From: Deltaproteobacteria bacterium
Lineage (GTDB): Bacteria; Bdellovibrionota_B; Oligoflexia; Oligoflexales; Bog-1112
DNA: 64,000 bases
NCBI GenBank assembly: GCA_016186945.1
Contig: JACPKR010000013.1
Span: forward strand, 1-64,000
Direction of reading: 5' to 3'
This document shows positions 8,355 to 64,000 of this stretch, in pieces. The notes beneath the pieces are model-generated. The model was not told the DNA's origin. It did not search any database and saw only the letters and a program-made list of their open reading frames with translations. Each line of letters opens with the position of its first letter. Positions within the stretch are counted from its first letter, which is position 1. Position numbers and translations under genes: made by a program.

Positions 8355-8500
8355 GTAACCCGAAAGCCACTTGGGGCAAGGAGGTGGTTTGGAGGAAACT
8401 GCGCAGCTGGTTCCTCCAAGAAATCCCTTGGGGGAGCGACGGTTCCATCGCCCCCCCAAACCCCCCTCTCCCTATTTGCCCCAAGTGGCTTACGCATTAC
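8355..8500 (-). mobile_element. family A MITE, copy A1 (intact, with 8-bp target duplication)
   Basis: A 146-bp element oriented opposite to the copy at 18068. The right end has the consensus GGGGCAAGTGGC-type terminal repeat running out as GCTTACGCATTAC; the left end, GTAACCCGAAAGCC, differs from consensus at three positions. It is flanked by identical 8-mers TAACTAAA at 8347-8354 and 8501-8508. The interior holds the GGAGGAA/TTCCTCC hairpin and a G/C-rich hairpin. It encodes no protein. Confidence 0.88.
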
Positions 8501-10513: not shown

Positions 10514-10574
10514 CCTCCCATGAATTTCTTGGAGGAACCAGCTGCGCAGTTTCCTCCAAACCACCTCCTTGCGG
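10514..10574 (+). repeat. family A fragment, copy A5
   Basis: A partial copy preserving GAATTTCTTGGAGGAACC, the CAGCTGCGCAG loop, TTTCCTCCAAACCACCTCC and TTGC, but neither terminal repeat. It fills nearly the whole gap between the PilZ-like gene and the TPR lipoprotein gene, ending a few bases before the latter's ribosome binding site. Confidence 0.8.
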
Positions 10575-18067: not shown

Positions 18068-18214
18068 GTAATGCGTAAGCCACTTGGGGCAAATAGGGAG
18101 AGGGGGGTTTGGGGGGGCGAGGGAAGCGTCGCCTCCCCCAAGGGATTTCTTGGAGGAACCAGCTGCGCAGTTTCCTCCAAACCACCTCCTTGCCCCAAGT
18201 GGCTTACGCATTAC
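18068..18214 (+). mobile_element. family A MITE, copy A2 (intact, with 8-bp target duplication)
   Basis: A 147-bp element with perfect 25-bp terminal inverted repeats (18068-18092 and 18190-18214), starting GTAATGCGTAAGCC. It is flanked by identical 8-mers TAAGCCAG at 18060-18067 and 18215-18222. The interior holds a G-rich hairpin (GGCGA/TCGCC with C-rich extension) and the GGAGGAA/TTCCTCC hairpin with a CTGCGCAG-type loop. It has no coding capacity. Terminal GTAA and 8-bp duplications are typical of the IS66 family. Confidence 0.92.
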
Positions 18215-39961: not shown

Positions 39962-40018
39962 GCAAGGAGGTGGTTTGGAGGAAACTGCGCAGCTGGTTCC
40001 TCCAAACCACCTCCTTGC
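39962..40018. repeat. family A hairpin fragment, copy A6
   Basis: A symmetric hairpin: GGAGGTGGTTTGGAGGAA and TTCCTCCAAACCACCTCC arms (19 bp or so) around an ACTGCGCAGCTGG loop, preceded by CAA and followed by TTGCCCCG. The rest of the element is gone. It lies about 175 bases upstream of nusA, following the lipoprotein gene whose stop is at 40031. It could serve as a terminator or a processing site, but it lacks a T-run. Confidence 0.75.
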
Positions 40019-54393: not shown

Positions 54394-54460
54394 CTATATT
54401 TTTCTTTAGAAACACCGCGTAAGCTGCTTAATGAGAACGGCAGAGAAAAAGGGGACTAGC

Positions 54461-54904
54461 ATGGCGGAAATTCGATTAAGCCGCGGGATTTTTATCCTCG
54501 CTCATTTGGGCCTTTTGGCCATAGGAGCTTGCTCGCAAAAAGAGGCAACTGTCACGGACATTTTAGAGGTAGAAGAGCAGGAGAATGGGCCTACCTTTGA
54601 AGACGTTCTTGGGGATGAGGCACTGGATTTGAATGAAGACCTGTGGAAAGAGGAAGAAAGCTTGGAGAAGGCGGCTCTACTCGCATCGCAAGCAGTCTTG
54701 GAAGTGTCAGAAGGCGGGGGTCAGCGTTTTAGGGTCGCCGCTTCAAGCCTAAACGTACGTAAAGGACCCGGTTTGAAATTTCCAACTGTTGATAAGATGG
54801 AAGAGGGCACCGTCGTTGATGTCTCTCGGATCCAAGAGGAGTGGGCTAGGGTGGGCGAAGGAAAGTGGGTTGCCATGAGGTTTCTTAATCTTATCGCTCC
54901 CTAG
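54461..54904 (+). CDS. SH3b-domain lipoprotein
   Basis: The 147-residue product starts at the ATG at 54461 after AGGGG. A signal peptide ends in lipobox IGACSQ (Cys24). An acidic linker (EEEQENGPTFEDVLGD and more) precedes a C-terminal bacterial SH3 domain, RFRVAASSLNVRKGPGLKFPTVDKM-type, with W at EEWARVG and KWVAMRFL. Such domains often bind peptidoglycan stems. It is the first gene on the plus strand beyond the ribosomal block and may belong with the envelope cluster. Confidence 0.8.
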   Translation: MAEIRLSRGIFILAHLGLLAIGACSQKEATVTDILEVEEQENGPTFEDVLGDEALDLNEDLWKEEESLEKAALLASQAVLEVSEGGGQRFRVAASSLNVRKGPGLKFPTVDKMEEGTVVDVSRIQEEWARVGEGKWVAMRFLNLIAP

Positions 54905-54947: not shown

Positions 54948-54992
54948 TTGTGAGACTGGATTGCTTCGTCGGGCTTCGCTTCTCGCAATGAC
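54948..54992. repeat. dispersed GATTGCTTCG...CGCAATGACA repeat
   Basis: The sequence TGAGACTGGATTGCTTCGTC continues as GGGCTTCGCTTCTCGCAATGAC; ATTGC and GCAAT arms close a hairpin with a nested TTCG element. Repeats of this type (GATTGCTTCG...CTCGCAATGAC) are scattered in many bacterial genomes and are usually intergenic. Here it lies between the SH3b lipoprotein and the first sulfatase-fold gene. Confidence 0.6.
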
Positions 54993-55016: not shown

Positions 55017-57044
55017 ATGGTACAAGATTCTCCCGGTAAAATCGCAGCATGGGCTCTTTTGCTGACTTTGAGTGTAAGTGTTGCTCAACTGGCCTTTTCT
55101 GGTGGTGGTAATTTTTTTGGGGTGGACAGCAGCGTTCTGGTAGCGGAAATCCTCCGTCTCTACCCTCTCGTTGCTGCAGAGGAGGCTTTCAAGCTGTTAG
55201 CGATTGTTTTTGTTCTTTTTTTCGTCCTTGTGGGCGCTACACTTTTCGCGTCCCGCAACTTGATGGGAAGGTCATTGTTTTTTAGTCTCGCGGTTCTTGC
55301 TTACCTTTTTTCCCTTGCTGGGTCGGTGCTGAGGTACCCTGCTCTCTACGTTGAGTTTCTTGATGAGGGGTTCCAGGAAAAACTATTCCATGCTTCTCGA
55401 TTCTTAAGTCCGAACATACTAGATTTTCTTGCTTCTCTGCTTATAGGAGGGCTGGCCTTATACCTCGTGTCACGACTGAAGCGAAGAAAGCTGGTGTTTA
55501 GTGGCGTAGGCATTGTAATTGCTATCCTTCTATTTTCGAGCGCGTACGGCTTCATCATGAGACGGAGCAGCGCCAGTGCAAGCACGGAAGCAAGCCCTAA
55601 TGTCCTTATCATAGGTATTGATTCTCTGCGTACTGATCGCGTCCTTTTTCAAATCATGCCCGAGTTGTTCTCTCTCAAAATGGACCCTCTTACTGTAGTG
55701 GGAGAGGATCATATTGTTGGTGTACCGCGCACATTTCCTTCATGGGTCGAGCTAGTGCAAGGGCGGTATGCTTCACAGACGGGTGTTCGCCATATGTTCC
55801 CGGACTTGGTGAGGCAGAGGGCTTTCTATCCGGGTCTAGTGAGTGAGTTGAGCAGTCTTGGTTACCGTACCTCTGTTGTCTCAGATTTTGCGGGTGATAT
55901 ATTTCCTCGCTTCAAGGCGGGGTTTCAGGACATTGACGCTCCGAATTTTGACCTACGGACTCTCATAAAAAAGAGTGTTGATGAGGCCTTCCCTCTTTTT
56001 CTTCCTTTCGTGGCGAACCGATTGACGGCCCCTCTGTTTACGCACTTTCTCGAAAATCCGAGTTTCAGCGACCCGGACTTGCTTGTTGACAAGGCGATAG
56101 CTCGTTTGAAGGCTGACGGCCCCTTTTTCCTGAGTGTCTTTTTCTCGACTGCTCATTTTCCCTACGCAGCTCCCTGGCCGTGGTATTCGGCATACAGTCT
56201 AGATACTTACAGCGGGCCCTACTTTTTCAAGAAGGACCCCGATCTGGGCGCGAGTCAACTCAGCGAGGGTGACATTGAGCAAATTCGCTCCCTTTACTCC
56301 GGTTCCCTCTCTGCGGTCGATCAGTCGCTGGGACGACTGTTTAGTTTCCTGAAAAGTTCCGGAGTGTGGGAGCATACGATCGTCGTTGTTACGGCGGATC
56401 ATGGGGAGGATCTGTTTGAATTCGACAACATCCAGGGTCATGGGGACCACTTGCGGGGTGAAAATGTGTTGAAGGTTCCCCTTCTTATAAAGTTGACAGA
56501 CAAGTTAAAGCCCGCACAAAAACGGCTTAGCTTCACAAGCAGGGTGATTGATGTGGCGCCAACTCTTCTTGGCTTCTTCAAACGCGCTCTGCCGACGGCT
56601 CAGGGAACTGACCTTGGCCCATGGATATTGGGAGAAAAGGTAGGGGTTCCTGCTCAATCTGCCTATTCGGAAACGGGCATTTGGTTTACTCGCAATGGCG
56701 GGGCTTTCTTCCAAAGAGAGCGGCTGGACTACCCTAACCTTTCAGGTCTTTTAAATGTGGATCCAGGGCGTTCCGGTTCTATCGTCATGAGTCCGGACTA
56801 TGAAAAATTGATAATTGCGGCGAAACATAGGAGTTTGACAAAGGCACGTTATAAAATGATCTACACGCCGACGGCTAAAGGAGCTTTTTTCAGGCTTTAT
56901 GATCGCGAGTTGGATCCCCAGAATCGGAAGGATTTGGCGGATGAGCTGCCGGACGTCTTCGCCTCGATGAAGGGGGAGCTAATGGAACTTATCCTCAGCA
57001 TGGATCGAGTCTCATTCGTGGAAGACTATGTGGTGCCTTTATGA
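55017..57044 (+). CDS. membrane sulfatase-fold enzyme 1
   Basis: A 675-residue protein of the alkaline phosphatase/sulfatase superfamily. Five predicted membrane segments occupy residues 8-180, then a periplasmic catalytic domain. Metal and active residues: Asp202 in IGIDSLRTD, Thr239 in PRTFPSWVEL aligned with the formylglycine Cys of CSPSR, His380 (STAHFPY), Asp461-His462 (TADHGEDL), His475 and His478. The C-terminal LYDRELDPQNRKDLAD has the DP-x-E/Q-x-x-L sulfatase-like pattern. Thr instead of Cys argues for a phospho- or phosphoglycerol-transferase, as in LtaS and EptA. Substrate unknown. Its stop overlaps the next ATG by four bases. Confidence 0.82.
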   Translation: MVQDSPGKIAAWALLLTLSVSVAQLAFSGGGNFFGVDSSVLVAEILRLYPLVAAEEAFKLLAIVFVLFFVLVGATLFASRNLMGRSLFFSLAVLAYLFSLAGSVLRYPALYVEFLDEGFQEKLFHASRFLSPNILDFLASLLIGGLALYLVSRLKRRKLVFSGVGIVIAILLFSSAYGFIMRRSSASASTEASPNVLIIGIDSLRTDRVLFQIMPELFSLKMDPLTVVGEDHIVGVPRTFPSWVELVQGRYASQTGVRHMFPDLVRQRAFYPGLVSELSSLGYRTSVVSDFAGDIFPRFKAGFQDIDAPNFDLRTLIKKSVDEAFPLFLPFVANRLTAPLFTHFLENPSFSDPDLLVDKAIARLKADGPFFLSVFFSTAHFPYAAPWPWYSAYSLDTYSGPYFFKKDPDLGASQLSEGDIEQIRSLYSGSLSAVDQSLGRLFSFLKSSGVWEHTIVVVTADHGEDLFEFDNIQGHGDHLRGENVLKVPLLIKLTDKLKPAQKRLSFTSRVIDVAPTLLGFFKRALPTAQGTDLGPWILGEKVGVPAQSAYSETGIWFTRNGGAFFQRERLDYPNLSGLLNVDPGRSGSIVMSPDYEKLIIAAKHRSLTKARYKMIYTPTAKGAFFRLYDRELDPQNRKDLADELPDVFASMKGELMELILSMDRVSFVEDYVVPL

Positions 57045-59413
57045 GGTCGCTCGTGCGAAATGTTTCCCTGTTCGTGTCGGCTCTGCTCCTCGTTTTTGCG
57101 CTGACGTACATCCTTCTCGTTTACCCCAATGACAGGCGCATCAGCTTTCCGTCGGAGACTTTGCCTCCCCTGCAACGTTTCAGAACAAAGATCTCATCAC
57201 TTTTCACAGACAAGATCGCTTATGAGTTGACTCTCTCTCTGGAGGCGTACCGTAAGAAGCTTGAGACTTTCGCCAACAGTTATGGCAATCATATAAGTTG
57301 GCACTCGCTACGCTTCCGCCATCCATTGCAACTTTACATTGCGGCAGGTTCCCACCCGCACCTGATCGAAGGTCGGGATGCCATTTTTCTTCCTTCCAAG
57401 GAGATTTTGACGATCCATCCAGCTTTGCAAGGGGACGTCATGGTGGAATTTGCAAGTGTTTCCCCCAAGGCAGATGCCGTCCTTACAGTCGGGCATGGAG
57501 GCAGAGTTCGGGAGTTTAGGCTTCCTAAGGTTCCTGAGCTGGAAGATACGGAGTCCCTTCTTTATAGAGCCGTTACCCGCTATTTGTTCCCGGACAGAAA
57601 ACCTCATACTGGGGTTTGGCAGACTCACAATTTAGAACTAAGTTTGGAAAAGGGAGACAGCCTTAGGTTTTCATGCCAGTCGGACGAGGATTCATGTTTT
57701 CTGGGGGACATCCGCTTCATGTCCCAGACGACAAACAGGCACCCTCAGGGCGTTGTGCTCATACTTCTGGATACCTTTCGTTACGACGCGATAGCCGGCA
57801 AAAATTCGGAGTTTCTTGGGCAGACACAGTCCCACAGCCTCGACTTTGTGAACGCAGTGGGAGCGGGCAACATGACCTCGATCTCTACGAACGCACTTCT
57901 TTCGTGTCAGAAGCCTGCCGATTTAGAAGGCGTTGCTTTTTCCTATGGCATTTCGAATGGTGATCAGGAAAGTTTTTACAAGAAGGGAAGAGCCTCTTTC
58001 CCCGAACTTCTCCGTCGCAACGGGATTAAAACCGCAGCCATTGGAAATATCTCGATCATCTCAGACATACTCGGCATCGGTGTTGACCACGGGTTTGACG
58101 ACCAGTTCGCAATTGAAACGGAAGGCTACGACACCGCGCAAATCACACGAGCGGCCCAACACTGGTTGGGGCAAAATGGAGACCAACCCTTTCTCCTCTA
58201 TTTGCATTACAACAGCCCGCATGGTCCCTACCGCGCACCTTTACGGGACGTTTTGGCAACGTTCAACGCTTGGACTTCCCTGTCATCGTTAAGAAACATG
58301 ATGCTCGATCTATATCAAGCGGAAGTCCGATACGTGGATCGATATGTTGAGAAAATATTTGAAACCCTAGACGAGTTAGGTCTTAGAGAACACACGACTG
58401 TGATCATTACATCAGATCATGGAGATCATCACGAAATTCGCTCTTTTTCCGACAATCAGGCAGGTCCTCCGTACGTAGGAAGCACCTTCGATCATGGGGA
58501 AACGCTATACAACGATGAAATCCATGTGCCGTTATTCATAAACACCCCCCAAGATCGGACCCACAGAATCGTTTCAACCTATGTTTCAAGCCTGGATATT
58601 GGACCTACCATATTAGACATGTTTGATATCGTCACCCCCTCGTGGTGTGCGGGAACCTCTCTTATCGCAACGGATGAGGAGGGTTTGAAAGAGCGAGTCG
58701 TGGCGTCTGAAGGTTTTAACCAGAGAGCGATATTTTACGACAGTAAATTTAAGTACATCAAGACTTACGCAAGTTCAAAGCGCAGCCTTGTGACCCCCTC
58801 TGGGTATTGGCGAGAGAGTGCGGAAATTTTTGCAGAGGAGCAGCTTTTCGACATCGAGAAGGACCCCCAAGAACAATTCAACCTCCTGAGAAGTGATCTT
58901 GCGACATTCACCCTCATGAGAGACTTCTTTCATGACTACTACGGGATCACTGAGCAATGGGACTTGCTTGTCGACTCTTTACGGACTGAGCCTGTCGAAA
59001 TTCTTTTTGCGCCAGAAGACAAGCACAAGCTTTTCTGGAACGACAGTTTTTCGGAAAGCCCTGCCGGAGTGGTCTTTAAAGCGGAGGGCGAACAGCGTGT
59101 ACGCATTTCCTTCCGAGAGGCTCCTCAGTCGTTACCTCAAGTGATGGTAGGGGGAAATTCCTTGGAAGTGACTTACACCTCCTACAGGCTGCCGCTCACT
59201 CTGCCTTTTTCTGAACTGCCTTTGGAAAGCGGCTTAAATCTGGACGGGCTTCCTCTCAGTGTGAAGGACGCGGCGTTTTTCGTAAGGGCCTCGAAAGATC
59301 CGCTGAAAGTGAGAAAAATCGTGATTGGCAACCCTCAATTCGAAAGACTCTTTCGTGAATGGGGATATCTCAACGATAATAATGGGGGCTATGTTCACGC
59401 GGAAACAAATTGA
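57041..59413 (+). CDS. membrane sulfatase-fold enzyme 2
   Basis: A 790-residue protein with a single N-terminal membrane anchor (residues 7-28), a 200-residue beta-rich periplasmic domain, the catalytic sulfatase-fold domain and a 180-residue C-terminal beta domain. Catalytic residues: Asp244 (LLDTFRYD), Thr279 in GAGNMTSISTN in place of the sulfatase Cys, His394 in YNSPHGPY, Asp459-His460 (TSDHGDHH), His485 (TFDHGETL) and His495. LFDIEKDPQEQFNLLRSD is a sulfatase-type C-terminal motif. It overlaps enzyme 1 by four bases. Both lack the Cys/Ser-x-Pro-x-Arg formylglycine signature. Confidence 0.82.
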   Translation: MRSLVRNVSLFVSALLLVFALTYILLVYPNDRRISFPSETLPPLQRFRTKISSLFTDKIAYELTLSLEAYRKKLETFANSYGNHISWHSLRFRHPLQLYIAAGSHPHLIEGRDAIFLPSKEILTIHPALQGDVMVEFASVSPKADAVLTVGHGGRVREFRLPKVPELEDTESLLYRAVTRYLFPDRKPHTGVWQTHNLELSLEKGDSLRFSCQSDEDSCFLGDIRFMSQTTNRHPQGVVLILLDTFRYDAIAGKNSEFLGQTQSHSLDFVNAVGAGNMTSISTNALLSCQKPADLEGVAFSYGISNGDQESFYKKGRASFPELLRRNGIKTAAIGNISIISDILGIGVDHGFDDQFAIETEGYDTAQITRAAQHWLGQNGDQPFLLYLHYNSPHGPYRAPLRDVLATFNAWTSLSSLRNMMLDLYQAEVRYVDRYVEKIFETLDELGLREHTTVIITSDHGDHHEIRSFSDNQAGPPYVGSTFDHGETLYNDEIHVPLFINTPQDRTHRIVSTYVSSLDIGPTILDMFDIVTPSWCAGTSLIATDEEGLKERVVASEGFNQRAIFYDSKFKYIKTYASSKRSLVTPSGYWRESAEIFAEEQLFDIEKDPQEQFNLLRSDLATFTLMRDFFHDYYGITEQWDLLVDSLRTEPVEILFAPEDKHKLFWNDSFSESPAGVVFKAEGEQRVRISFREAPQSLPQVMVGGNSLEVTYTSYRLPLTLPFSELPLESGLNLDGLPLSVKDAAFFVRASKDPLKVRKIVIGNPQFERLFREWGYLNDNNGGYVHAETN

Positions 59414-60455
59414 TAGCCAAGCATTTGCTTGGAGGAACCAGCTGCGCAGTTTCCTCCAAACCACATCCTTGCCAGTTCTCGCTCTAATTGCTTTGTCCAT
59501 GCCGACCCTCGTCTTTGGAAAATTCTATTTTCTGACAAATGAATGCCAACTCCCGTCGGATCCGGTGGATGAAAAGGGTAGCTTGTCACGTTCCTTTTTT
59601 CTATGTGCCAATGGTCTTGCGAACTTAGACGGGATGTACATCACGAATAAGAGATTTGCTTCCTTAAGCCGTTACAAAATCAAGACATCATTTCACTATG
59701 GGCTAAAGCACACCCTTTTCTACCAGGGTTACATGGAGCAGATGGGGGGCACAGGGGACGAGTTGCCGTTTCAGAGAGAGTCAAGAAGTGAGCTTGCCAT
59801 CTACCAATACGGCACGCCGGGTAGTGATAGGGTTCTTTTCCGTGTCGGTCATGGTCTTTTGCCATTTGGGATCAACCGAACGCCGCTTGTGGGCCTCAAC
59901 CAGCTTTTTGACCCCCGTTTCTTCTGGGGTTCTCCTCTTCCTCATGTTGGACTCACGCTGGACAACTTGAAAAACTTGACTTTTGAAGTTGCCGCTGGCT
60001 TGGAAAAAGAGATCGATGGAGACGAGAGTAAAGACTACAGTTTTTCGTCGCGAGTCATGTACGACTTCTCGGTTCTAAACGGGACCCGTGCCGTTCTTTC
60101 TTTCCTGGGCCAAAAGTCAGGTCCTCGCAAAATGGGAATCGGTCTGCTCAATTTTGCGCCCAACCGTAGTCTTTTTCACCTTGAGTGGGCACGATACCGC
60201 AGCGCACCTTCTGGAGAAGAAGAGCCGGACCGACGGCTCCTTCGCATCGCTTACCAGGATCCTCCTCGCGCGAAGGCACAGACCTATGTTTTGTACGATG
60301 ACGTCAATTTTCAACACCGACTGCTAGTGGTCGGCTCAAAACTTAGTTTTAACACCCAGTTTAACACAAACCTTGCTATCGCTTACAAAAAGGATGAAAC
60401 TGGAATGAAAAGACATCGTTGGTATTTTAGTGGCGGTCTTGGATTTCAATTATGA
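59391..60455 (+). CDS. predicted outer-membrane protein of the envelope cluster
   Basis: A 354-residue (from the ATG at 59391) exported protein. The signal peptide core is LPVLALIALSMPTLVFG, preceded by about 29 residues partly encoded by a family A fragment. The rest alternates strands and turns (VLFRVGHGLLPFGINRTPLV, LSFNTQFNTNLAIAYKKDE) and ends in FQL, suggesting a porin-like barrel. The start is uncertain: the insertion seems to have disturbed the leader. The 3' end overlaps the next gene by four bases and its 5' end overlaps the preceding one by 23. Confidence 0.6.
   Translation: MFTRKQIDSQAFAWRNQLRSFLQTTSLPVLALIALSMPTLVFGKFYFLTNECQLPSDPVDEKGSLSRSFFLCANGLANLDGMYITNKRFASLSRYKIKTSFHYGLKHTLFYQGYMEQMGGTGDELPFQRESRSELAIYQYGTPGSDRVLFRVGHGLLPFGINRTPLVGLNQLFDPRFFWGSPLPHVGLTLDNLKNLTFEVAAGLEKEIDGDESKDYSFSSRVMYDFSVLNGTRAVLSFLGQKSGPRKMGIGLLNFAPNRSLFHLEWARYRSAPSGEEEPDRRLLRIAYQDPPRAKAQTYVLYDDVNFQHRLLVVGSKLSFNTQFNTNLAIAYKKDETGMKRHRWYFSGGLGFQL
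59426..59475 (+). repeat. family A fragment, copy A7
   Basis: A fragment with GCTTGGAGGAACC, the CAGCTGCGCAG loop, TTTCCTCCAAACCAC and CCTTGCC. It lies in frame inside the leader of the predicted outer-membrane protein, just 3' of the stop of sulfatase-fold enzyme 2. Confidence 0.75.
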
Positions 60456-63073
60456 GTGGTTTGACAAGCGTTTGGATCTTCCTACTGTGTACGACGTCTG
60501 TATTGTTTGCTCAGGATGAAAAAAAGGATGAAAGGCAGAAACCTGAAGAGAAAAAAGAAGAGCTGGAAGAAGAGCAATTTTTCCCACGTATAGACCTAAT
60601 TTTCGACAATCCTTTCCTTCAACGCAGTCTTAATGCCGGGGCACAGGTCATCAATAACTCACTCGACTCCCTATTAGAGGGGGTTTTTTACAGCTTACTC
60701 GACAACGAATTTAGTCAAAATCTCACCTCCCACATCCGGTTGGTGGAGAACCTTGGCAGGACCGTTTTCACAACCGGCCAGGGAAAGTATGTCGTCGTGG
60801 ATCGTCTACTTCTTGGTCCGACGTATAGACGTGAAATCATGCGTCACTTCAACATTATTTTCAATCAGGGTATGGACGCCAGTGTCGACATGCTAAACAT
60901 TTACCTTCGTTCCGATCCGCAAAGGGTCGCTGAGGAAGTTAGCTTGCCTACCTGGCGCTATGTGGTCAACAACTGGTTTGGAGTCTTGCCGTTTTTGGAA
61001 AGAGTGCTTACACCATCTTTCAATGCGAATGAACTTTACGACCCGCTTCGCCAGGTAGAAAGCCCTTTCACCTTTCCCTTCGACAGGAAAGGGTTTGCAA
61101 AGATGGAGCTAGGTTCCATCCGCAGTTACGCGTTGCAAGGAGGTCTGACCTTCCCGATAAATCTGGAGCAAATTTCGGACACCAGCATCCTCGACAATCT
61201 GGATCGGCTTGGCTTTGAATTTACAGTCCCCTACACACTCTTCCTCGAAGGGGAGTATCGGATAAACGTATTAAAGAAGAGCAAGCACATTGCCTGGGTG
61301 GGTCTTACCAAGAGTCGGAAATCAGGTCATTCCTTGTCAGGTGTGATCGGTGCCACCTACTTTCTTCTGGAAAACTCGCTTCGCCCCATCCCTTGGAAGG
61401 GGATTCCAACTCAGCTGTCTCTGATCGATGTAAGTCTGATACGGTCTTTGATAGACAGATTTGACCAGCTGTACGAGTTTGATCTTAGAAAAAAGGCTGG
61501 CTATGAAGGCTTTCAAAAAGCGCTCAGAGGTGATTTCACGTTTGTTAAAAAAGGTAAGCCTTTAAAAAAAGGTATCTCTTTTCACTTCACAAGACAGTCG
61601 GAGTCCACGGTCAAGACTGCGGACAACAAGAAAAACTTCCTGCTTTTGTATCGAAACAAGACAGACCACTCCCTTTCGAAAGCAGAAGTAAAGGTGAAGG
61701 ATGAAAAAGGTGACTTTTTTGTTCTTGAAAATGAAAGCCGCTACGACCAGGAATCCTGGAATCTGCTCACCGGTGAGAAGGAGGTCAATGTTTCCCATGA
61801 ACTCGCCGTGAATGTGGAAAAAATGATGGATCCCAAAAGCACCCTTGACGATCCGAAGTATCACTATATTTTCCACCGTTCCATGAAGCCCAAGCAACTT
61901 GTCCTTAAGCTGCAGATTAAAGACCGTTTTGCACGGGTCAAAGATTTCTACTCTTATATTGATCTGCTGCGTCTGTTTACGAATCTTCCGCTCGAGGAAA
62001 TTCCGGAAATACCGGCGACAGATGACAATGAGCTGAGCCTGCGCCGGCGTGCGTCTCCCTTCATTTCGCCTTTGAGCAGCCCTCAGAATTTTCACATTAC
62101 CAACACGATCATAGGAAAATTCAACGCGACGGCAATCGTGGTTTTTGACACGCCGGTCTTAACTCACATCATAAGTCGAAGCGAATCCGAGAAAAGATCT
62201 GCTTTTTACAAAGCATTTGAAAGGGATTTAGAGCGAGACAGTTTGAGTTTTTTTGATCGGCTCCGTTACTATTCCGCGTATCCCTTACGGCTGGTCAATC
62301 TATCCTTTGATAGTGTTAACCTTCCTTTGGAAGTTAGGGATACTTTGAACGCTTTTCTGAAGATTACTCCCGAAAGTCAGCCACTAGAGGTCTTGGATGC
62401 GTTCTATGAAATGTTTGACACGGAGTATCCCCACCGTTTGGCTTCAGCTTTCTTCATACTTTCTCCCTTGAAGGAGGTTCCTAGGAAGGCAACCCTGTAT
62501 GTTTCCCCTGCCCGTCATTTGGCTGACAAGGTCAAGGCACTGATAGGCGCGATGAATGAAAAGTCGTTTCAAGCGGAAGCTCCCTTTCCTGAGCTTGAAC
62601 GTTACCGCATTGCGCGCAACAAACTTAATGCCTTTGTCCCTCTTCACGTAAAGGAGGAGCAAGGCGACATCCTCATTTTGAGAATCTCACCTGACGAGGG
62701 TAAGGCGGTCAAGGTTTTTGTAAAAAACCATCTCAGTCCTCATCGCAAGTTGTTTTTTGTCCGGGTCGAGACAAAGGGAACCTTAAAGCTTGGGAAAAGT
62801 GTGGTCGGTCAGAAGATAGTCGAGGCCATTCCCTCCCAAGTTTCTCCTAAGGAGGACAGTTTGTCTTACACAATCAAGCTGGAAGGATTTGAAGCTCAGA
62901 AGCTTGACACCCAGTTGTGGCAATTGTTCCAGGATAACGATCTGAAGGAGGGAAAAGACTATCATTTGGTAATTTCAGTTTCGCATGATGCACGGACTTG
63001 GAGCGAAGCAAGTAGCTTGGATTTTCAATACAAAAATGGAAGCGTGGTTCCTATTGTACCCGAGGAGAATTAA
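60452..63073 (+). CDS. large exported protein of unknown function
   Basis: An 873-residue protein with a signal peptide (MSGLTSVWIFLLCTTSVLFA) followed by a Lys/Glu-rich stretch (DEKKDERQKPEEKKEELEEE, residues 22-41) and a large mixed alpha-beta body with no domain I recognise. It is hydrophilic enough to be periplasmic or outer-membrane associated rather than membrane-spanning. Its ATG overlaps the preceding gene by four bases, so it belongs to the sulfatase-fold cluster. It may bridge the cytoplasmic membrane enzymes and the outer membrane; this is speculation. Confidence 0.7.
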   Translation: MSGLTSVWIFLLCTTSVLFAQDEKKDERQKPEEKKEELEEEQFFPRIDLIFDNPFLQRSLNAGAQVINNSLDSLLEGVFYSLLDNEFSQNLTSHIRLVENLGRTVFTTGQGKYVVVDRLLLGPTYRREIMRHFNIIFNQGMDASVDMLNIYLRSDPQRVAEEVSLPTWRYVVNNWFGVLPFLERVLTPSFNANELYDPLRQVESPFTFPFDRKGFAKMELGSIRSYALQGGLTFPINLEQISDTSILDNLDRLGFEFTVPYTLFLEGEYRINVLKKSKHIAWVGLTKSRKSGHSLSGVIGATYFLLENSLRPIPWKGIPTQLSLIDVSLIRSLIDRFDQLYEFDLRKKAGYEGFQKALRGDFTFVKKGKPLKKGISFHFTRQSESTVKTADNKKNFLLLYRNKTDHSLSKAEVKVKDEKGDFFVLENESRYDQESWNLLTGEKEVNVSHELAVNVEKMMDPKSTLDDPKYHYIFHRSMKPKQLVLKLQIKDRFARVKDFYSYIDLLRLFTNLPLEEIPEIPATDDNELSLRRRASPFISPLSSPQNFHITNTIIGKFNATAIVVFDTPVLTHIISRSESEKRSAFYKAFERDLERDSLSFFDRLRYYSAYPLRLVNLSFDSVNLPLEVRDTLNAFLKITPESQPLEVLDAFYEMFDTEYPHRLASAFFILSPLKEVPRKATLYVSPARHLADKVKALIGAMNEKSFQAEAPFPELERYRIARNKLNAFVPLHVKEEQGDILILRISPDEGKAVKVFVKNHLSPHRKLFFVRVETKGTLKLGKSVVGQKIVEAIPSQVSPKEDSLSYTIKLEGFEAQKLDTQLWQLFQDNDLKEGKDYHLVISVSHDARTWSEASSLDFQYKNGSVVPIVPEEN

Positions 63074-63086
63074 GGGGGGATGTGGC

Positions 63087-64000
63087 GTGAGTAAGAAAAT
63101 CTGTGACTTTTTGATCGTCGGTGGTGGTGTCGTCGGATTATCTGTCGCGCGTGAATTGCGTAAGCGTAGCCCGAAGGCCTCCATTTGCGTTCTTGAGAAG
63201 GAAGGAAATGTTGGGGTCCATGCCAGCGGTCGCAACAGTGGGGTCATCCATGCGGGCTTTTACTATTCCCCGGACTCTATGAAAGCGAAATTTACGAGGT
63301 CCGGAAACCTCGATCTTCATCAATTTTGCGATGAGGCTAAGATTCCTGTCAACCGTTGCGGGAAGCTGGTCGTTGCCGGTGATGAAAAGGAGGAACAAGT
63401 TCTTGACGTTCTGGCAGAAAGGGGACGTATCAACGGCGTTCCCTTAACATTGATCGACAAAAGTCAGGCCGCAGACATTGAGCCGCGAGCAAAAACCTAT
63501 CGTCGTGCCCTCTGGTCCCCGTCCACGTCCTCGATCAATCCCAGGCAAGTATTGGACGCTCTGGTGACTTGCCTGAAAAAAACGGGGTCTTCCCTTTCCT
63601 TTGGCGAGACATTTGTCAGGAAGGGGCAAAATTCTATCCAAACGAACAAGGGGACGATCGAAGCTGGCATGATCATAAACTGTGCGGGCACATATGCAGA
63701 TGCGATTGCCAAGCAGTTTGGCATGGGACGGGATTATGTGATCCTACCTTTCAAGGGCCTTTTTATCTATGCGCCAGAAGCAAATGGGGCCATTCGCACA
63801 CATGTTTACCCCGTTCCCGACTTGTCCACGCCATTCCTGGGGGTTCATGTCACGATCGGGGCGGATGGAAAGACCAAGTATGGTCCAACCGCCATTCCTG
63901 CTCTATGGAACGAACATTATCAAGGCTTGAAGAATTTTCGAATGGGGGAGTTCTTGAAGGTGGCCTCGGCGGTGGGGAGGAAATTTTTGACGGACGGTGA
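63087..64000 (+). CDS. lhgO: LhgO-like FAD-dependent oxidoreductase (5' part; runs off the window)
   Basis: A plus-strand gene starting with GTG at 63087, six bases after GGGGGA, and open to the last base (304 codons). The start DFLIVGGGVVGLSVARELRK is an FAD-binding Rossmann motif, and HASGRNSGVIHAGFYYSPDS with the later FLGVHVTIGADGKTKYGPTA match L-2-hydroxyglutarate oxidase (LhgO/YgaF). That enzyme oxidises L-2-hydroxyglutarate to 2-oxoglutarate. The C-terminus is outside the window. A different frame at 63569 is only a shadow. Confidence 0.88.
   Translation, partial: MSKKICDFLIVGGGVVGLSVARELRKRSPKASICVLEKEGNVGVHASGRNSGVIHAGFYYSPDSMKAKFTRSGNLDLHQFCDEAKIPVNRCGKLVVAGDEKEEQVLDVLAERGRINGVPLTLIDKSQAADIEPRAKTYRRALWSPSTSSINPRQVLDALVTCLKKTGSSLSFGETFVRKGQNSIQTNKGTIEAGMIINCAGTYADAIAKQFGMGRDYVILPFKGLFIYAPEANGAIRTHVYPVPDLSTPFLGVHVTIGADGKTKYGPTAIPALWNEHYQGLKNFRMGEFLKVASAVGRKFLTDG

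Follow-up and report, generated by a model that had tools for sequence, protein, structure and literature searches.

According to our analysis, four consecutive plus-strand genes in a genome of the order Oligoflexales are best explained as an envelope operon, in which two membrane-anchored enzymes of the sulfatase fold (A and B) would transfer or cleave a phospho-group, and a porin-like barrel with a large exported protein (C and D) would be their outer-membrane partners, a reading that we hold with about as much confidence as doubt. The genes lie near the end of the window, by which we mean the whole stretch of 64,000 nucleotides that was analysed, and together with the gene preceding them they are arranged as follows:

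54431..54904, plus strand: F7, exported SH3-domain protein, probable lipoprotein, 157 aa (SH3_3 match, E 6e-6)
55017..57044, plus strand: A, inner-membrane enzyme, 675 aa (PF00884 match, five hydrophobic segments)
57041..59413, plus strand: B, enzyme anchored by a single transmembrane (TM) helix, 790 aa (PF00884 match, one hydrophobic segment)
59391..60455, plus strand: C, predicted porin-like outer-membrane beta-barrel, 354 aa (AlphaFold model)
60452..63073, plus strand: D, large exported protein of an unnamed family, 873 aa (open reading frame and model)

An earlier, sequence-only reading had described four plus-strand genes overlapping by 4, 23 and 4 bases, and its open reading frames, coordinates and lengths were confirmed (4 nt between A and B, 23 nt between B and C, 4 nt between C and D), the length of C being counted from the ATG at 59391, with an alternative TTG start upstream at 59325. 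The overlaps are not peculiar to this genome: that of A and B (1-4 nt) recurs in relatives and is kept even in family f12 of the sister order, and the ATGA overlap of C and D recurs as well and is possible in most loci examined. F7, whose SH3_3 match falls just below the cut-off, opens the conserved locus, facing away from the S10 ribosomal operon, and has homologues at the equivalent place in five other loci. The host assembly comprises 2.66 Mb in 76 contigs and is 91% complete. Downstream of D, on the same strand, a FAD-dependent oxidoreductase of the DAO family occupies positions 62985-64000 of the window; relatives do not have it at this place.

The genome is also rich in a 31-bp palindrome-like repeat, TTGGAGGAACCAGCTGCGCAGTTTCCTCCAA, with 381 copies in 2.66 Mb at no more than two mismatches on both strands (0 for a reversed-pattern control), a count in which some places may be included twice, once per strand, as the repeat is near-palindromic. 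Five copies lie in the window, at 59429-59459 (plus strand), 8389-8419, 10529-10559, 18150-18180 and 39975-40005; the first falls inside C, at its 5' end, and is translated as part of the protein, in frame and immediately before the signal-peptide core, recalling palindromic elements inserted within genes. Another element, GATTGCTTCGTCGGGCTTCGCTTCTCGCAATGAC, at 54959-54992 in the short gap upstream of A, has a single copy in the window and looks like a widespread dispersed repeat.

Both enzymes belong to the alkaline-phosphatase superfamily, matching the Pfam Sulfatase model (PF00884) with 95.6 bits for A and 122.9 bits for B against a cut-off of 25, and both are membrane proteins, as had been noticed from the sequence. 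In A five predicted TM helices precede the enzyme domain; B has one TM helix, an extra N-terminal domain, the sulfatase-fold domain and a conserved C-terminal REWGYL motif. A and B were aligned with four E. coli proteins, namely EptA, OpgB, LapC and the sulfatase AslA, and their active-site columns read D202, T239, H380, D461, H462 and H475 in A, and D244, T279, H394, D459, H460 and H485 in B. Thr239 and Thr279 occupy the nucleophile column of all four E. coli proteins, and T279 aligns with the Cys of CAPSR in an arylsulfatase chain, which bears out the earlier placing of both residues at the position of the formylglycine cysteine. Every A homologue keeps the nucleophile Thr, as do 10 of 11 homologues of B. 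The one without it is a B-like protein of family f12 (L045:3276-6023, genome G054) that has no A adjacent and in which the metal Asp is lost as well (NEVAFAM, GAHG), a probable pseudoenzyme to judge by these replacements.

The formylglycine motif (C/S)xPxR is absent from both enzymes, A reading T239-F-P-S-W and B reading T279-S-I-S-T, with the Arg replaced by Trp in A and by Thr in B. Since Thr is unable to yield formylglycine, and the Arg of CxPxR, which stabilises formylglycine, is missing (PMC5066984), a sulfatase function is ruled out for A and B. A Thr nucleophile with Asp-His metal ligands has the roles assigned to these residues in LtaS, EptA and MCR-1 (PMC7576196), and phospho-transfer or diester cleavage of the Thr type at the periplasmic face would be the well-supported chemistry of both proteins. 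Their first metal ligand is Asp (D202 and D244), as it is in AslA, LapC and the phosphonate monoester hydrolases; it is Glu in EptA, in OpgB and in two other PF00884 membrane proteins of the host genome (L002 and L003; G000 C54 and C56), whose sites are of the Glu-type found in LtaS and EptA. In profile comparison A comes closest to phosphonate monoester hydrolases (E 6e-25), with LtaS2 and YejM at about 1e-9, and B to arylsulfatases (E 1e-24). The signature PRTFPSW / SDFAGDIFPR / STAHFPY / GHGDHLRGE marks the Asp-type, Thr-nucleophile membrane subgroup.

C begins with a signal-like stretch and matches no Pfam or NCBIfam family over the cut-off. Its AlphaFold model (mean pLDDT 82) has 16 strands and matches solved general porins in VIA-align with Z 22.8-24.0 over 256-275 residues, the best reaching Z 24 with rmsd of 2.9-3.1 over 265-275 residues, so that we confidently predict a 16-stranded outer-membrane barrel of the general-porin type, in agreement with the outer-membrane location proposed before.

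D likewise finds no family over the cut-off in Pfam or NCBIfam and has a hydrophobic, signal-like N-terminus. In its model (mean pLDDT 78) a helix at 54-83 is followed by many strands of 12-27 residues, and three parts can be told apart: long antiparallel strands at about 85-495 (to 565), a helical part at about 496-735, and residues 738-862, which match many fibronectin-III (FN3) entries with Z up to 9.4 and rmsd of 2.0-2.4 over 86-96 residues. The strand-rich part resembles barrels to a middling degree (Z about 9-10 with rmsd of 6-9; Foldseek TM-scores of about 0.14); among those of 12-14 strands and larger, AIDA-I gives Z 10.1 at rmsd 6.4 and FadL Z 8.9 at rmsd 6.5. Hydrophobicity alternates in many of the strands, fitting a membrane barrel, and several are largely polar. 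A TonB-dependent receptor was considered and rejected: BauA, FhuE and SusC are found by Foldseek at E about 1e-4, but with TM-scores of 0.14 and rmsd of about 20, and therefore share strand similarity only. The model makes an outer-membrane location of D likely. The sequence-only reading had joined the enzymes to an outer-membrane and a large periplasmic partner; periplasm-facing enzymes and the outer-membrane partner agree with our results, whereas strand-rich D may itself belong to the outer membrane. On sequence comparison D is an unnamed, order-wide family, undescribed in the libraries searched and seen in Oligoflexales only.

Of 58 genomes from the phylum, 30 contain strong matches to D, all within the host's order, where G030 adds a C-terminal fragment beyond these; none occurs in family f12 of the sister order, and none on plasmids. 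The named genomes with relatives of D come from metagenomes and bear the labels Oligoflexales, Oligoflexaceae, Pseudobacteriovorax or, more loosely, Deltaproteobacteria, names from which the host would be an uncultured Oligoflexales. By direct search C adjoins D in about 25 of the 30 D-bearing genomes. Ten Oligoflexales genomes have A and B side by side (our own, G001, G005, G007, G017, G022, G027, G031, G033 and G034), and so, in a more distant form, do seven genomes of f12. Six of the ten have A-B-C-D contiguous, and contig ends split the cluster in G001 and G007, so that eight are linked or broken by a contig end alone; with G005, where A-B-C stay together and D is elsewhere in the genome, nine carry C and D. 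The order is retained in three families, and conserved synteny, which had been proposed as a check on the four genes, is thus present.

The same comparison shows that the cluster is made of two separable conserved modules, the enzyme pair A-B and the outer-membrane pair C-D. The latter is widespread in Oligoflexales, whereas A-B is present in fewer genomes and lies almost always directly upstream of C-D. The idea of a dedicated four-gene system is upheld by the synteny, but not as a single indivisible unit, and one may ask if the modules have any joint task. It is rather unlikely, though it deserves serious weight, that C-D is an independent outer-membrane pair upstream of which A-B was kept by shared transcription: about 20 genomes that have C-D but no A-B, and G017 with the seven f12 genomes, where A-B is present and C-D is not, speak for such mere neighbourhood, but A-B stands directly upstream of C-D in eight of the ten Oligoflexales genomes that have it (two across a contig break), and the B and C genes overlap in most such loci.

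Clustering of all neighbours suggests an ancestral locus in which SH3 - HD-GYP - A - B - C - D run divergently from the S10 ribosomal operon on the other strand. Partial versions of it are seen in several relatives:

G006: S10, divergent SH3 - C - D
G024: S10, divergent HD-GYP - C - D
G017: S10, divergent HD-GYP - A - B
G005: S10, divergent SH3 - A - B - C

This points to one ancestral place beside the S10 operon, from which different lineages kept different subsets. An HD-GYP-like protein (HD_5) precedes the cluster in ten relatives' loci and is missing from the host locus; the host genome holds no close orthologue of it, just paralogues with 30-36% identity over part of the protein. The gene trees of A, B and D are congruent as far as they resolve, grouping the f9 genomes together and our genome with G005, with deep branches unresolved. 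As the three trees recover the same groups, vertical inheritance of the operon in Oligoflexales, with losses, would be the simplest reading.

From these data we propose that A and B would face the periplasm and use the Thr nucleophile with one or two metal ions held by Asp and Asp-His, and that a phospho-threonine intermediate would form, through which a membrane phospholipid may give up its phospho-headgroup to a lipid or glycan of the envelope, or such a group may be cleaved. C-D would act at the outer membrane, the final location of the modified molecule, with C as a porin-type channel and D as its translationally coupled partner having a barrel-like part and an FN3 domain. The two modules would be separate and cooperate where both are present; since each pair also occurs alone, C-D commonly, the joint function is not obligatory. 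The complete D-T-H-D-H-H site in A, B and their Oligoflexales relatives, like that of EptA and OpgB save for Asp in place of Glu, argues for this proposal, as do the five helices of A, the recurring gene order and overlaps, the congruent trees and the porin fold of C. The host genome has LpxC, so that LPS synthesis is probable and lipid A is one candidate acceptor among several. The best profiles, hydrolases for A and arylsulfatases for B rather than transferases, would count against it, as would the Asp first ligand, shared with hydrolases and YejM, and the middling barrel match of D. A system that modifies or builds a surface polymer had been suggested from the sequence; envelope modification is probable, but the building part is unproven, since the surroundings of the cluster showed neither a polymer synthase nor an export gene.

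It is unlikely that the four genes serve nutrition instead, A and B being periplasm-facing phosphodiesterases or phosphonate hydrolases that free phosphate or alcohols from compounds admitted by C, with D helping in capture. The profile matches of A, the Asp ligand of both enzymes, and OprO, a phosphate-type porin, among the structural matches of C (Z 22.9) are in line with such a role, but C matches all general porins alike, both enzymes are membrane-anchored (A by five helices), Thr stands in place of the formylglycine needed by those hydrolases, and neighbour clustering across relatives found no conserved transporter gene beside the cluster.

We consider improbable a more far-reaching version, namely that A-B-C-D is a dedicated, undescribed pathway in which two Asp-type Thr transferases would introduce a new modification of an envelope lipid or glycan at the inner membrane, and the porin and its lineage-specific partner D would place or remove it at the outer membrane, perhaps standing in partly for MlaA-type lipid handling. 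None of 56 genomes from the phylum has a match to MlaA (PF04333), though the host has LpxC; as MlaA is absent both with and without D, there is no anti-correlation and nothing specific about C-D, and the MlaA analogy for this pair was set aside. It is very improbable that A and B have no catalytic activity and serve to regulate envelope synthesis, comparable to the signalling role of YejM/LapC, for although A has the five helices and the Asp-Thr pair of LapC, all metal ligands of A and B are conserved, including the Asp-His replaced by Gly-Arg in LapC, and loss is seen in the distant L045 protein only.

Returning to the envelope operon as the preferred reading, the enzyme class and the porin are of known kinds, and it is the combination and the D family that are undescribed in what could be searched; nothing on this cluster was found in the open-access literature on Oligoflexales outer membranes or sulfatases. 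The Pfam name "sulfatase" is misleading for members of this large superfamily, and the synteny that ties an Asp-type, Thr-nucleophile membrane subgroup to an outer-membrane pair gives a handle on function. If this system does modify the envelope, it would offer an early clue to the envelope chemistry of Oligoflexia, which have been little studied.

Among known systems, OmpC, OmpF, PorB and Omp32 share with C the 16 strands (Z 24, rmsd about 3), and C differs from them in its identity of about 12%, in having no Pfam porin match and in being co-encoded with D. A sulfatase-like protein from a Leptospira borgpetersenii plasmid (WP_004278338.1, L088:5062-7515) is 36% identical to A over residues 194-675 and has its motifs PRTFPxW, FAGDIFPR and HGHGxHLRGE; it is of the membrane type and lies beside carB, without B, C or D as neighbours. 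The phosphonate monoester hydrolases and phosphodiesterases (PDB 2vqr and 2w8s, sulfatase class S1_0), the best profile match of A, have in common with it the Asp first ligand, the Asp-His metal pair and a conserved His, but they are soluble and form formylglycine from Cys, whereas A is a five-helix membrane protein with Thr; against the NCBIfam equivalog PehA the two enzymes score 76 and 63 bits for a cut-off of 900. YejM/PbgA/LapC resembles A in its helices and in the matching Asp and Thr columns, and is set apart by the lost Asp-His pair and by scores of 24.1 and 18.7 bits against a cut-off of 825. Membership in the LtaS/EptA group fails on the Glu ligand of LtaS, EptA and OpgB and on the NCBIfam cut-offs (13 and 39 bits against 970 for LtaS, about 12 against 493-500 for lipid A PEtn transferase models), and B differs further by its one helix and extra domain. 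The five-TM layout of A is that of LtaS, EptA and YejM. The LtaS- or EptA-like character first assigned to both enzymes does not extend to profiles or first ligand; it holds for what LtaS, EptA/MCR and OpgB share with them, namely the Thr nucleophile, the Asp-His pair and a membrane-anchored periplasmic domain, borne in A by five helices.
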